DNA of 22,740 nucleotides, taken from IMG/VR virus record IMGVR_UViG_3300042938_001069, positions 1 through 22,740 of that record, one strand, 5' to 3'. The notes below the pieces were generated by a model. The model saw nothing but the letters and a program-made list of their open reading frames with translations, was not told where the DNA came from and ran no database searches. The translations under genes were made by a program, and so were the position numbers. The stretch is from a virus. Shown piece after piece: positions 17,145 through 22,740 of this stretch; the first letter of the stretch is position 1, and the number at the start of each line of letters is the position of its first letter.

Positions 17145-18068
17145 ATGAATAAGTCAAACTTCAAGCTTGCGTTCACAGACAACACAACTTACTACGGTAA
17201 AGATTTGGAAGGTTTCTACGCTGCTGCTTTACTTACAGGGAACTCAAAAAGCGAGTTCAAACTAATACCTAATGTGAAATCAAAGGTAAAACTAGGACAA
17301 CTTGACCTTGGAAACATTCTTCAAGACGCTGATTGTTCTTTCTCGTCTACGGGCGAAGGAACTTTATCTCAAAAAACTTTTGAGGTATGTCCTATAAAAA
17401 TCAACTTGGAATACTGTCAAAGAACTTTTGAGGTAAACTATTTATCCGAGTTATTGAGACCAGGTTCTAATAGCGACCAAGTTATGCCAGATAGTGTTGA
17501 AAGCTTCTTACTTGCAAGGTCTGCTGAAAAAATCTCTGCTGATACTGAAAAGTTAGTATGGCAAGGTAATACAGCTACTGCTTCTTACCCATTAGCTCTT
17601 TGCGACGGTTTAGAGAAACAACTTTTAGCTGACGCTGCTGTTGTTGATGTTGCTGCTGGAACATTATCTGCTTCTAACATTATCGCAGAATTGACAAAAG
17701 TATATAACGCTATTTCTAACACGGTTATTGACGCAGAAGACTTACGTATCTTCTTATCTCCATCAGCACATAGATTTTACAGAGCTGCATTAGCGTCTGC
17801 TTCTGCCGAAGCATACTACATGCAAAACTACGGAGAACTACATTTCTTGAATGTTAGATTGTCTGTTGCTCCTGGTATTTCAACTAACAAAATGGTTGCT
17901 GCTAGAAAATCAAACTTACTTTTATTGACTGACTTGATGTCGGATTTTGAGGACATTATGATTTTGCCACAGAAGCAAACGAGTGGGGTTCCAGTAGTGC
18001 GCATGGTCGGAGAATTCAAATTTGGGGTTGGATATATTTTCGGAAGCGAAATCGTATTCTACAACTAA
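17145..18068 (+). CDS. Major capsid protein (HK97 fold)
   Basis: 307 residues from the ATG at 17145 (MNKSNFKLAF). The protein has the features of an HK97-fold major capsid protein: it directly follows the protease/scaffold gene, has an N-terminal arm, a long helix-rich middle (SAEKISADTEKLVWQGNT), AEDLRIFLSPSAHRFYRAAL and a C-terminal KFGVGYIFGSEIVFYN strand, a common ending for this fold. Cys occurs in several conserved-looking places (DADCSF, FEVCPIK, LEYCQRTF). I chose the second ATG because the upstream one at 17115 lies in candidate promoter P4 and adds an atypical Lys/Asn-rich extension (MYKRKKNENK). A hairpin terminator follows at 18088. The extended reading from 17115 cannot be fully excluded. 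Confidence 0.8.
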   Translation: MNKSNFKLAFTDNTTYYGKDLEGFYAAALLTGNSKSEFKLIPNVKSKVKLGQLDLGNILQDADCSFSSTGEGTLSQKTFEVCPIKINLEYCQRTFEVNYLSELLRPGSNSDQVMPDSVESFLLARSAEKISADTEKLVWQGNTATASYPLALCDGLEKQLLADAAVVDVAAGTLSASNIIAELTKVYNAISNTVIDAEDLRIFLSPSAHRFYRAALASASAEAYYMQNYGELHFLNVRLSVAPGISTNKMVAARKSNLLLLTDLMSDFEDIMILPQKQTSGVPVVRMVGEFKFGVGYIFGSEIVFYN

Positions 18069-18087
18069 TAAAATAAAAACAAATAAC

Positions 18088-18106
18088 GGGGCTTCGGCCC
18101 CTTTAT
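18088..18106 (+). terminator. Hairpin terminator after the capsid gene
   Basis: GGGGC-TTCG-GCCCC, a 5-bp GC stem closed by a UUCG tetraloop, followed by a short TTTAT tract. The T tract is weak, so partial readthrough into the next gene is likely; the hairpin may also protect the capsid mRNA 3' end. Confidence 0.75.
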
Positions 18107-18128
18107 AGAAAAAAATATAATAATCAAA

Positions 18129-18677
18129 ATGGCAATATGTAATGCTTTATCGGCAGGCCTTGACAAATCGTGTGACAACAACGCAGGTGGTGTAAACAAA
18201 ATCTTTATTACGGATTTTGACAACGTAGCGTTTTCTGGAATAACGATTGGTGCTGCTACTTCTCCTCAAACAGGAGACTGGGTTGACGCTATAACTATGA
18301 TTTCTGGCGATTTCTACGAAGTGAAAACCAACAAAAATGTATGTAACTTTACAGAAACGGTAGCAGTTGACCTTGCTAACGGAACAACTTACTTCAACCA
18401 AGTTGTAACATTAGAACTTTCTAGAAGAGAGACTACTAAAAGAACTTTCATTGACAAACTAATCGCAGGACAAAAACAACTTCGTTTGATTGTTCTTGAT
18501 AGTAATGGAAACTACTGGTTGTTTGGATACACAGAGGGTTCTTATGTAACTGCGATTGAGGGTGGTTCGGGAACTGCAAAAGCTGACAAAAACGGATATA
18601 CGGTGACTTTCACTGCTATGGAACCTTTACAAGCTTGGCAAGTAGACCCAACAATCGTTGCTGCAATCACAGCATAA
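18129..18677 (+). CDS. Candidate major tail tube protein (paralogue 1)
   Basis: 182 residues, beta-rich. It begins MAICNALSAGLDKSCD and contains GGVNKIFITDF, an EVKTNKNVCNFTET segment, a LSRRETTKRTFIDKLIAGQK helix, NGNYWLFG and GGSGTAKADKNGYTVTFTA. Length, position near capsid and tape measure, and the 'ETT-R-FI-L-GQ-L' helix between two sheets fit a tail tube subunit that polymerises around the tape measure. The neighbouring gene at 18759 is a clear paralogue. Alternatives are a capsid decoration protein or another abundant structural protein. It has terminators on both sides, so its level may be set separately from the capsid. The three Cys at residues 4, 15 and about 77 are shared with the paralogue. 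Confidence 0.55.
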   Translation: MAICNALSAGLDKSCDNNAGGVNKIFITDFDNVAFSGITIGAATSPQTGDWVDAITMISGDFYEVKTNKNVCNFTETVAVDLANGTTYFNQVVTLELSRRETTKRTFIDKLIAGQKQLRLIVLDSNGNYWLFGYTEGSYVTAIEGGSGTAKADKNGYTVTFTAMEPLQAWQVDPTIVAAITA

Positions 18678-18701
18678 TCTACAATCAAATAATAACAAAA
18701 G

Positions 18702-18734
18702 AAAGCCCGCCGCCTAATATGGAGGCGGGCTTTT
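18702..18734 (+). terminator. Strong hairpin terminator after tube paralogue 1
   Basis: Stem AAAGCCCGCC / GGCGGGCTTT with an inner CC/GG extension, loop around TAATAT, then a TTTTC tract. The A/T ends make it work in both directions in principle. It lies in the 81-base gap between the two tube-like paralogues. Confidence 0.85.
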
Positions 18735-18758
18735 CTTATACAAAAAAATATAATCAAA

Positions 18759-19592
18759 ATGGCAATATGTAATGCACTAACAGCAGGCTTGGATAAGTCC
18801 TGTGATACGAATGCAGGTGGTGTCAATAAAATCTTTATCGCGGATTTTGTGAGTTTGTCTCCAAGTATAAGTGGTGGAGAAATAGCGAATATATCTCCTG
18901 ACCTAAACGAAGGAATATATGTTGTGACTACCGTAGCAACAATAAATACAACAATCACTGCTGGCAACTATTTCATAACTACAATAGAAGTAGCAGGTGA
19001 CCTAACAGATAAGATAAAAGTTGGAAAGCAAATCAAGTTCTCATATAACACACAAACTGGTGGTGGAAACTGGACTGGAAATCTAGCATCAGTCTCATAC
19101 AATTCTGGAACAAATAAAACTACTATTACACCAGACTTTGCTGGTTTCACACCATCGGTTGGTTTAGTTTCGGCCGGTGCTGCACCAAACAACACGACTA
19201 ATCAGTCTATAACTACATTTCTATTCTGGGAAATAAAGACAAATAAAAATGTATGTAATTTCACAGAAACTATACAGACTGATATGACTAATGGAACTAC
19301 TTTCTTTACTCAAACGGTAAATGTTGTTTTATCAAAAAGAGAGACTACAAAAAGAGAAACCCTAAAAAGGTTTATTGACGGACAAAAGCAATTGGTGCTT
19401 GTTGTTCTTGATACTAATGGAAACTATTGGTTATTCGGACTTGTAGAAGGTGTTTATGTAACAGCAATGGAAGGTGGTTCAGGAACTGCGAAGGCAGACC
19501 AAAATGGATATACAATCACTTTTACTGCAACAGAAACTATACAAGCATATGAATTTGCTTATTCTAATCTTGCTCCTTATTTAGTAGGATAA
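18759..19592 (+). CDS. Tube-like paralogue 2 with inserted beta-rich domain
   Basis: 277 residues. The first 30 residues differ from the upstream paralogue at only three positions, and similarity resumes from WEIKTNKNVCNFTET to NGNYWLFG, GGSGTAKAD and NGYT-TFTA. Between these, about residues 31-130, is a segment absent from the first copy, containing AGNYFITTIEVAGDLTDKIK, VGKQIKFSY and SGTNKTTITPDF, a pattern seen in small beta domains of phage virion proteins. The result is a tube-like core carrying an extra surface domain. It could be a minor tube subunit, a tail terminator-side variant or a decorated tube. The leader (AAAAAAATATAATCAAA) and the first codons are also nearly identical to those of paralogue 1, so a tandem duplication is clear. 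Confidence 0.6.
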   Translation: MAICNALTAGLDKSCDTNAGGVNKIFIADFVSLSPSISGGEIANISPDLNEGIYVVTTVATINTTITAGNYFITTIEVAGDLTDKIKVGKQIKFSYNTQTGGGNWTGNLASVSYNSGTNKTTITPDFAGFTPSVGLVSAGAAPNNTTNQSITTFLFWEIKTNKNVCNFTETIQTDMTNGTTFFTQTVNVVLSKRETTKRETLKRFIDGQKQLVLVVLDTNGNYWLFGLVEGVYVTAMEGGSGTAKADQNGYTITFTATETIQAYEFAYSNLAPYLVG

Positions 19593-19597
19593 AAAAC

Positions 19598-19648
19598 AAA
19601 CCCAGAGCAATCTGCTCCGGGAGACCCAGGTTGAGGCCTGGGTTTTTT
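19598..19648. terminator. Bidirectional terminator between tube paralogue 2 and the minus-strand gene
   Basis: Stem ACCCAGG-TTGAGG-CCTGGGT (19624-19643) followed by TTTTTT serves + strand transcripts. A larger alternative stem pairs AAACCCAG at 19598 with CTGGGTTT at 19638, enclosing a small GAGCA-ATC-TGCTC hairpin. The A run at 19591-19596 becomes a T run for the minus strand, so the structure can also end the convergent gene, whose stop codon is at 19647-19649. Confidence 0.8.
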
Positions 19649-19949
19649 ATTTTACTGGAACCGAACTCTCAAAAAGGTAGTTCGCTCTCACATCATACTT
19701 ATCAAGGCCATAAGACCTGAATACTTCTTCGCTGTCTGCTATGATTTTTACTAACTTGTCATATACTGCGTCAGCCGGCGAGATTATAGACTTTGTGATA
19801 AGCAAGTAAACAAAAGTGTCATTTGCCGTTCTGTGGTGATATAACGCGTCTACTAATACTTTGTCAAGGATTACGGTCTCATACATTCCGCCTTCTACTG
19901 ACCTTTTGATTTCTACTCCTCCTGCGATTGCTTTTCTCATGTCTTTCAT
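19647..19949 (-). CDS. Moron-like small protein, unknown function
   Basis: 100 residues from the ATG at 19949 (MKDMRKAIAGGVEIKRS) to the TAA at 19647. It is a soluble alpha/beta-looking protein with an early Gly-Gly hinge, TVILDKVLVDALYHH, FVYLLITKSIISPADAVYDKLVKIIADSEE-like helices and a C-terminal YDVRANYLFES. No signal peptide or membrane segment. I do not recognise it. It is the only minus-strand gene inside the virion block, has its own host-type promoter (19976-20007) and its own terminator, and so could be expressed when the late genes are silent. The open frame upstream to 20057 is rejected because it covers that promoter. Early host-takeover, exclusion or regulatory functions are all possible. 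Confidence 0.65.
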   Translation of the reverse strand: MKDMRKAIAGGVEIKRSVEGGMYETVILDKVLVDALYHHRTANDTFVYLLITKSIISPADAVYDKLVKIIADSEEVFRSYGLDKYDVRANYLFESSVPVK

Positions 19950-19975
19950 AATGTTTATGTTTTTAGTTTGTCTTA

Positions 19976-20007
19976 CAAATATACGGAGGTTATTCCGAAT
20001 AAACAAA
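19976..20007 (-). promoter_or_regulatory. Bacteroidota-type promoter for the minus-strand gene
   Basis: On the minus strand, TTTG (20007-20004), 20 bases, then TATATTTG (19983-19976), an exact match to the TTTG / TAnnTTTG consensus of Bacteroidota primary sigma promoters. It lies 26 bases upstream of the ATG at 19949, giving a leader of about 20 bases that is AT-rich (AAAAACATAAACATT). Confidence 0.75.
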
Positions 20008-20027
20008 CAATCACCGAAATATATTTC
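20003..20027 (+). promoter_or_regulatory. Candidate phage promoter P5 (portal gene group)
   Basis: ACAAA at 20003 and TATATTTC at 20020, 17 bases start to start, differing by one base in the first box from the ACGAA sites upstream of other virion genes. It overlaps the upstream box of the divergent minus-strand promoter by four bases. A promoter is needed here because the terminator at 19598-19648 and the convergent gene isolate the portal group from upstream transcription. Confidence 0.4.
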
Positions 20028-20031
20028 AGGT

Positions 20032-20466
20032 ATGATAATGCTAAAACCAGGAACCACCGATGCCGTCTTTACTCTAAACGAGAAGTTCGGCTTTTTCTCG
20101 CCGTCTGTTTACACATACACAGACTTGTTTTTCTACTTTCGTTTTGAGAACGAATTGAACTATTCAGTAATAGACTTCTCTAAAACTTCTTTGTTAGATT
20201 TAGGAGACGGAACCAGATATAACAAGTTTGCAATCAGCTCCACTTTCTCGGCTACCGCTTCGGCTGGAACTAATGAGACTTGGGACAGAACTTATGACAT
20301 ACACTTATTTGGTGAAAACAATGATTTAGGTTCTGGTTGGAACTATACAATATGGGCTTGTCAAGGACCAGTTCCTTTATCAGGAACAATCTCTTTACCA
20401 TCAATGACACAGAGCACTCCTCCTGTCATAGTAGAAACTGGACGAGTTAGGTTCACAGAGCAATAA
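20032..20466 (+). CDS. Small structural-region protein, unknown function
   Basis: 144 residues if started at 20032 (MIMLKPGTTDAV) or 142 from the ATG at 20038. It is beta-rich (FYFRFENELNYSVID, then TRYNKFAISSTFSA, TYDIHLFGENND, NYTIWACQG) and ends in VETGRVRFTEQ. The pattern recalls small single-domain proteins encoded next to the portal in Bacteroidota phages, with no firm family. The longer open frame back to 19861 is antisense to the minus-strand gene and is not used. The candidate promoter P5 ends 4 bases before the first ATG, so the second ATG may be the true start. It is followed 16 bases later by the portal gene, so they are likely co-transcribed. Confidence 0.55.
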   Translation: MIMLKPGTTDAVFTLNEKFGFFSPSVYTYTDLFFYFRFENELNYSVIDFSKTSLLDLGDGTRYNKFAISSTFSATASAGTNETWDRTYDIHLFGENNDLGSGWNYTIWACQGPVPLSGTISLPSMTQSTPPVIVETGRVRFTEQ

Positions 20467-20482
20467 AAAAACACATAAACAA

Positions 20483-21622
20483 ATGAAAATCTTCGGCTAC
20501 GAACTTACAAAAACGCAGGCACAAATTGCCTCACCAATACAGGAAATAAAAGACGCTGTTGATGGATTTCAACTTGGTGCTGAAACAGACCTTCCTGTAA
20601 TAAGAGAAAGCAGGAACAATGAGTGGGTTGACTATGGTATAAACAACCTTTATCCTGAATACCTGAAAGATATGTATAATACATCACCAACACACAATGC
20701 TATTGTAAAAACGAAAGCACAAATGGTAGTTGGCGAAGGATGGGAAATAAACGACGAACTTCTTGACGAAAAGGCAAAGGTCGCAGTTAGACAGATAATC
20801 AACCAGGTTTGGCGTGACGCGTATGAAATCTCATTAGATTATCAAATCTTTGGAGCAATGGCATTAGAAACTATATGGTCTCTTGACGGTCAAAGAATAG
20901 TTGAGGTAAATAGAATTGACCCAGCAAAGTTGAGGTCTGGAAAATATGAGGACGGAAAAGTATGTGAGTGGTTCTACAAAAGAAACTGGGCTGACAGAAG
21001 AGAAGACGCAGTAGAGATATATCCTTTTGCGGAAGGAGACTTGGAACATAAAAGACAACTTCTTTACCACGCAGGTCAAAAGGTTACGAACGAGTATTAT
21101 GGTGAGCCAACCTATTTGGCTGCAATGGACTGGGTGTCATTAGAAAGTCAAGTTGGTTTATATTACAAATCTCTTATAGAAAACGGTTTCAATCCTTCTA
21201 TACTTGTAAAGTTTTATAGAAAGCCAGGAACGCAAGAAGAAAGAGACGATGTAGTAACAGGTCTAAAAAGAACTTTTGGTGGTGTAAAACGCGCTGGAAA
21301 AGCAATGGTAATGTTTTCCGACGGTAAAGACTTGGCACCGGATGTTACACCAATAGACATACAAAATGTAGACAAGCAGTTTGTGGCAATCGCAGACCAA
21401 ATAACACAGAAAATACTTACAGCTGAAAGAGCAACAACTCCTGAATTATTTGGATTATGTGTGCCAGGCCAACTTGGCTCAGGAGACTTTGAGGTAAAAG
21501 TAAAGTGTTTCAACAAGTTTGTAATACAACCAGACCAAATGGCATTTGAATATGTTGTAAACAAGTTATTACTTGCTAACGGTTATATGGTTGATTTCAA
21601 ACTCAAACCAATGACGATATAA
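20483..21622 (+). CDS. Portal protein
   Basis: 379 residues. The N-terminal WVDYGINNLYPEYLKDMYNTSPTHNAIVKTKAQMVVGEGW pattern (no-gap 'NN-x-P-x-x-L-x-x-x-Y-x-x-SP-T-H-x-x-I') is typical of portal proteins, as are the middle (DYQIFGAMALETIW, VEVNRIDPAKLR) and the C-terminal ITQKILTAERATTPELFG followed by a Gly-rich loop. It forms the dodecameric ring at the capsid vertex through which DNA enters. It is at the short end of the family's length range (usually 400 or more), lacking a long C-terminal barrel. Here it is downstream of the capsid, tube and a minus-strand gene, whereas in most siphoviruses it precedes the protease and capsid. No terminase is in the window. Confidence 0.75.
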   Translation: MKIFGYELTKTQAQIASPIQEIKDAVDGFQLGAETDLPVIRESRNNEWVDYGINNLYPEYLKDMYNTSPTHNAIVKTKAQMVVGEGWEINDELLDEKAKVAVRQIINQVWRDAYEISLDYQIFGAMALETIWSLDGQRIVEVNRIDPAKLRSGKYEDGKVCEWFYKRNWADRREDAVEIYPFAEGDLEHKRQLLYHAGQKVTNEYYGEPTYLAAMDWVSLESQVGLYYKSLIENGFNPSILVKFYRKPGTQEERDDVVTGLKRTFGGVKRAGKAMVMFSDGKDLAPDVTPIDIQNVDKQFVAIADQITQKILTAERATTPELFGLCVPGQLGSGDFEVKVKCFNKFVIQPDQMAFEYVVNKLLLANGYMVDFKLKPMTI

Positions 21623-22282: not shown

Positions 22283-22740
22283 TCATGATGTTGCATCTTT
22301 TAGCACCTTTGGAGTGCATTTATCAATCTCTACCTCAAAGTATTCTCTCGGTATTTTCACCGTTAGAAAGTGGTGCCCGTTGGCAAATCTATTTACGAGG
22401 TGAACTCTTGCTCGCAGACCTTGTCCGGCAGTAGCAGTATGATATACAAACCCCGCAGTTTTGATTAGTCTTCTCAACTTATCTGTTTCTATGATATAAG
22501 CAATCTCGTGGTCTGGAAAGTAATACACAAATAAGTCTGCCTTCGTCGCATTGACACCACTTGCCGTTCCATTACATTGGAACTCTATAACCATATTTCC
22601 AGTCTCACCATTGTATGTTTCATATCTGTCTGTTTTTACTTCTACCGACTTATGTGAGCCGTCATACATATAAAAGTCAAATTCTTTTAGTTTTTGTTTG
22701 TCCTTGCTTTCGTTGAAATATACCCAACTCCAACCGAAGT
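22283..22740 (-). CDS. PD-(D/E)XK nuclease-like protein (5' end beyond the window)
   Basis: The frame is open to the window edge, so the ATG at 22669 is probably internal: translation upstream of it (WVYFNESKDKQKLKEFDFY) continues the same domain. The visible 152 residues contain an Asp in EFDFYMYDG and, 13 residues on, VEVKTDR, the D...ExK signature of PD-(D/E)XK nucleases, followed by TGNMVIEF, NGTASGV and TKADLFVYYF, an order seen in phage and resolvase-like enzymes of this superfamily. The C-terminal third is a basic, mixed alpha/beta segment. It may act in DNA recombination, packaging-end processing or host DNA degradation; its precise role is not determinable. It converges on the portal group, so it belongs to a separate, probably early or middle, transcription unit. 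Confidence 0.5.
   Translation of the reverse strand, partial: FGWSWVYFNESKDKQKLKEFDFYMYDGSHKSVEVKTDRYETYNGETGNMVIEFQCNGTASGVNATKADLFVYYFPDHEIAYIIETDKLRRLIKTAGFVYHTATAGQGLRARVHLVNRFANGHHFLTVKIPREYFEVEIDKCTPKVLKDATS

Follow-up and report, generated by a model that had tools for sequence, protein, structure and literature searches.

According to accounts of Arbiol 2010 and Comeau 2014, the PeSL cassettes of T4-like phages are reportedly small accessory genes separated by repeated promoter motifs that serve as recombination handles, the motif being a sigma-70 early promoter with a stem-loop. PeSL cassettes of T4-like phages are also cited in PMC4503421. A moron is defined as a single coding region with its own promoter and terminator, located between two genes that lie side by side in related phages and usually differing from them in composition; how morons come to enter phage genomes has been described as mysterious (PMC4378225). 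In archaeal viruses, early promoters common to diverse small genes predicted anti-defence genes, and some of these consensus promoters hold inverted repeats that have been read as repressor sites (PMC11065993).

The locus described here lies in a 22,740-nucleotide virus record from IMG/VR (IMGVR_UViG_3300042938_001069), the whole of which is referred to as the window. We consider it probable that the locus is an early-expressed, autonomous accessory cassette driven by the host polymerase, which is shuffled by promoter-leader recombination at a hot spot between late units. As the preliminary description had it, a 100-residue gene of opposite strand stands among the virion genes (minus-strand open reading frame, coding part 19650-19949, 19647-19949 with the stop codon). 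The same description placed the gene between tube paralogue 2 and the portal group, which is correct for the left flank, whereas the direct right neighbour is a 144-aa gene and the portal gene comes next. The name "tube" is also taken from that description; both "tube" proteins match phrog_19091 alone, a family of unknown function. The features of the locus are as follows:

18759-19592, plus strand: left flank, tube paralogue 2 (phrog_19091, unknown function)
19591-19621, minus strand: putative accessory-gene terminator, made up of hairpin 19621-19601 and a T-rich tail
19619-19648, plus strand: putative terminator for the tube-unit genes upstream; relatives with an empty site have a hairpin here too
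19647-19949, minus strand: accessory gene (family A), 100 aa, ATG at 19949, stop codon 19647-19649, supported by homologues and codon-position test
19950-19975, minus strand: A-rich leader of 26 bases, which with the -7 box is part of the promoter-leader repeat common to the 79-aa gene of L002/L011
19976-20007, minus strand: predicted host-type promoter TTTG-N20-TATATTTG, -33 TTTG at 20007-20004 and -7 box TATATTTG at 19983-19976
19984-19997, minus strand: imperfect dyad CGGA-N6-TCCG within the promoter spacer, a weak form in the window
20001-20026, plus strand: AAACAAA..ATATATTT, a candidate late promoter for the portal unit, in head-to-head overlap with the accessory promoter
20032-20466, plus strand: right flank, 144-aa gene preceding the portal gene
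20483-21622, plus strand: portal protein, matching phrog_33693, Phage_portal and Portal_Mu

The accessory gene is truly coding, because its homologues are 44-54% identical to the window protein at the amino acid level and their codon-position differences are protein-like, with third positions varying most (0.45-0.67 versus 0.28-0.31 at position 2). Four distinct members of this family, family A, were found in IMG/VR, namely the window protein (identical in L001, L007 and L002) and those of L008, L003 and L010, and all of them have a YGLDKYDxRAxYxF motif near the C-terminus, with the core YGLDKYDxRAxY. The GC content of the gene (0.396) is not clearly foreign when compared with 303-bp windows (0.382 +/- 0.029), and its GC3 of 0.41 is the highest among the genes listed. 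Another minus-strand gene of the window (22283-22738) belongs to phrog_13596, of unknown function; its residues hint at a possible PDDEXK-type nuclease.

Among the collections searched, family A is known from IMG/VR contigs only. No relative was detected when all four members were compared with INPHARED phages, and the window protein with PLSDB plasmids, by tblastn, or in two scans of GTDB genomes, and searches of the window protein and its homologues against Pfam, PHROGs, NCBIfam and PADLOC returned sub-threshold noise alone. AlphaFold2, given four sequences, predicted a beta-beta-alpha-alpha-beta fold with a mean pLDDT of 78. This fold had no significant match among PDB structures or viral predictions, the best Foldseek E values being 1.4 (PDB) and 0.34 (viral); the best VIA-align match (Z 4.8) was dismissed as a common arrangement. 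A search of PDB sequences likewise gave no useful match. The homology and structure searches proposed in the preliminary description have thus yielded relatives in IMG/VR and no functional or structural match. From sequence, family A proteins have no membrane segment and a pI of 4.6-6.7, and together with the model this suggests a soluble alpha/beta protein. Family A is a new orphan protein family.

The Bacteroidetes promoter consensus consists of -33 and -7 elements, TTTG/TANNTTTG (PMC6847099). The cassette promoter fits this consensus, which agrees with the exact host-type promoter reported earlier, and the bare pattern is no rarer in the window than would be expected by chance (2 matches versus 1.28). 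Although the pattern alone is insufficient, the promoter is credible because family A homologues in other phages are preceded by promoters of the same type. A scan for sigma-70 promoters is uninformative for a Bacteroidota-type host. The 26-base leader is A-rich and has no Shine-Dalgarno site. A missing Shine-Dalgarno site is usual in the Bacteroidetes phylum.

The imperfect dyad of the window has perfect counterparts, ACGGAA-N4-TTCCGT, in the promoters of L002, L010 and L003. Dyads between the -33 and -7 boxes were found in 8 of 47 promoter-led open reading frames, compared with 0.86 expected from shuffling (score at least 8), the promoters being partly related and the cases not independent. 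Further spacer dyads occur in L028 (5856), L021 (5293), L034 (12835), L054 (8922) and L036 (2480), all on the minus strand. Examples include GGAGTATT-GTGA-AATACTCC as well as ACGGAA-N4-TTCCGT, and many accessory-gene promoters have no dyad. The spacer dyads could represent an operator or the terminator of the preceding gene. A scan of the collection for promoters with dyads returned 11 stretches, of which four are ahead of family A genes and one is ahead of a 529-aa open reading frame with no visible link; the remaining stretches are ahead of no substantial open reading frame and were taken as chance.

The terminator that the preliminary description put at the gene end is present as a minus-strand hairpin (19621-19601) with a T-rich tail, separate from the plus-strand terminator of the tube genes. 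In total, 1.7 kb holds five terminator-like sites versus 0.8 expected. T-tailed hairpins are also located after the capsid-like gene (18068-18129) and tube paralogue 1 (18677-18759), and possibly tune the amounts of these proteins. At the empty junctions inspected in relatives, a terminator hairpin follows the tube gene and it is about 80-114 bp to the next gene, which is in most cases preceded by a TAAAC[GA]AAA..ATATATTT-like element, read here as a candidate late promoter of the portal unit. Since most of these empty junctions have both the tube terminator and the late-promoter-like element, the cassette sits exactly between two apparent late transcription units. The -33 box of the window cassette corresponds, as reverse complement, to a segment of the AATAAACAAA box of the late promoter.

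A portal alignment fetched 36 related loci, and 30 loci, counting the window, carry both the tube gene and the portal gene. The junction between the two is empty in 13 loci, holds family A in four (the window, L021, L023 and L054), other minus-strand genes in eight and larger plus-strand genes in five; as the loci include clusters of close relatives, these counts do not represent independent events. The other minus-strand occupants are genes of 199 aa (L053), 183 + 76 aa (L028, L029 and L055), 68 aa (L036), 49 aa (L025) and 70-76 aa (L033 and L034). The last two are related open reading frames (L033 4109-4339 and L034 6695-6907, both minus strand) with no recognisable host-type promoter. The 199-aa protein of L053, which at first impression might be acetyltransferase-like, was the subject of a second fold prediction (pLDDT 44). 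In an automated scan, 12 promoter-led minus-strand open reading frames fell in the tube/portal gap, whereas the entire virion block upstream had only two, one of them nested and the other 51 aa long. Close relatives therefore show the site empty, occupied by family A or occupied by unrelated genes, and conservation at this site in all relatives, which would have spoken against a moron, was not found. Judged from the sequences of its occupants, the junction between tube and portal genes is a hot spot for accessory genes. Neighbouring genes vary as well. In L037 (7717-8985), L041 (1088-2353) and L043 (7713-8984), the place of the 144-aa gene is taken by one of about 422 aa, and a relative of the 144-aa gene is found after the portal gene instead in L035 (10673-11116), L036 (4285-4695) and L051 (10718-11113).

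Gain and loss can be followed among near-identical genomes. L002 and L011, which are approximately 99% identical to the window, have an extra 79-aa minus-strand gene between the family A gene and the 144-aa gene, and these two accessory genes have a common promoter-leader at their boundaries, exact over 21 bp. Only one gene is present in the window and in L007, which was assembled separately, and the promoter of this one-gene allele consists of the outer sequence of copy 1 joined to the leader of copy 2, which is the product expected from recombination between the repeats. Two bases of the window dyad are found in neither repeat copy of L002; a recombination event is therefore only inferred, and no direction is assigned to it. 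The event may be old, or a third phage may have been involved. Exact promoter-leader repeats precede different accessory genes within one genome in L021/L022 (21 bp), L029 (28 bp), L053 (45 bp, preceding a family A homologue) and L051 (25 bp). Small same-strand genes downstream of the portal gene have near-identical promoter-leaders within one genome (L029, L053 and L051), while other promoter-leader types differ between genomes. These repeats look like handles by which the junction genes are swapped.

The phage probably infects a Bacteroidota bacterium; by portal protein, the nearest isolates are Nonlabens phages P12024S/L, at 27% identity. The preliminary description considered the gene a moron, of a kind that often benefits the host or prophage. 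As a lysogenic-conversion moron, the gene would be expressed from a repressed prophage and provide, for example, superinfection exclusion, and a host-type promoter and terminator independent of the late genes are compatible with it. However, 15 related contigs, all of them fragments, yielded no integrase, rve transposase, resolvase or HTH_3 repressor, whereas the control search worked, detecting the head-protease family PF14550 in 15 of 16 contigs. Family A is also missing from GTDB genomes, where prophages would appear, and it has no membrane segment. The moron reading therefore stands as to structure (one gene, with a promoter and terminator of its own, at a site of variable occupants), while for the prophage benefit there is no positive sign of temperate life in the group among the 15 fragment contigs, and we regard lysogenic conversion as unlikely. 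Exclusion or defence evasion by the family A product is possible. In L008 and L053, the family A homologue lies within an array of small genes on the non-virion strand whose promoter-leaders are nearly identical, and early lytic expression fits such an array better than a prophage benefit. A DruA-like protein (PF14236, E 3e-11) is encoded near the accessory array of L008 (48-1166, minus strand). In L003 and L018, the homologue is elsewhere, encoded on the other strand from the portal genes, and its ACGGAATAAGTTCCGTATCTTTG promoter is the same as that of L010.

Alternatively, the product could be a local regulator, acting on the late promoter of the portal unit, which diverges from and overlaps the accessory promoter, or on the dyad of its own promoter. 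The head-to-head overlap of the accessory and late promoters and the dyads in promoter spacers are consistent with such a role. However, 13 relatives have a late promoter-like element or terminator at the junction and no such gene, and in L003 and L008 family A is away from the portal-unit promoter, so that the chance of a regulatory role appears slim. It is very improbable that the gene encodes a virion or assembly protein merely placed on the other strand, as its position among virion genes might suggest, since family A is missing from most relatives that have these virion genes, occurs at other places and has a host-type promoter like those of non-virion genes. A chance open reading frame or non-coding region, which the short length, the lack of a database match and a promoter pattern no rarer than chance in the window could suggest, is the least credible reading and already made very unlikely by conservation, because the homologues keep the protein motif and the codon-position bias and each has a promoter and an ATG ahead.

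As an early accessory cassette, the locus would operate as follows. Host RNA polymerase would read the cassette promoter early, independently of the late genes and before late transcription, while the cassette terminator and the tube terminator would insulate both sides. Cassettes would be gained, lost and exchanged at the junction through recombination between promoter-leader repeats. The soluble 100-aa product, most likely made early in infection, would inhibit a host defence or take over a host process. Because shared promoters on small accessory genes led to anti-defence genes in archaeal viruses, we tentatively favour, by analogy, a counter-defence role for the family A product, short of holding it probable. 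Some other host-takeover role is a lesser possibility, and local regulation, prophage benefit and a virion role all rank below these two. A bolder and rather doubtful proposal is that the tube/portal boundary is a dedicated counter-defence docking site of uncultured Bacteroidota phages, in which repeats with dyads would be both regulated promoters and recombination handles and family A would be a new class of defence inhibitor.

The natural alleles of one lineage (empty, one-gene, two-gene and swapped) suggest promoter-leader repeats as a recombination handle. To our knowledge, few counter-defence genes are known in Bacteroidota phages. With the help of the promoter-leader signature, candidates for early counter-defence genes could be listed for these phages.

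Compared with the morons of lambdoid and other phages, the cassette is similar in being a single gene with apparent promoter and terminator motifs of its own, and in having flanks that are adjacent in relatives, as in the 13 empty junctions (PMC4378225). Its own promoter and terminator and the variable occupancy between adjacent genes therefore make it a moron in structure. It differs in its strand, opposite to that of its neighbours, in its Bacteroidota promoter type, in the lack of any sign of lysogeny in the group, in a composition that is not clearly foreign and in a site that also takes other genes. The likeness to PeSL cassettes is that one promoter motif recurs ahead of different accessory genes within a genome. 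However, a host-type Bacteroidota promoter TTTG/TANNTTTG with a leader takes the place of the sigma-70 early promoter with stem-loop, a dyad is present at some promoters only and the phage is not T4-like; the cassette works like PeSL cassettes but is not one. The early anti-defence genes of archaeal viruses are likewise small unrelated genes under one genome-specific promoter consensus, and the cassette dyads resemble the inverted repeats of those promoters (PMC11065993). A regulatory sequence common to other single genes of the same genome, a mark of such genes, is found in the sister strains L021/L022 and in L053. The phage and promoter type are bacterial here, and an anti-defence role would follow by analogy only. 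The cassette is a Bacteroidota variant of known accessory-gene shuffling.
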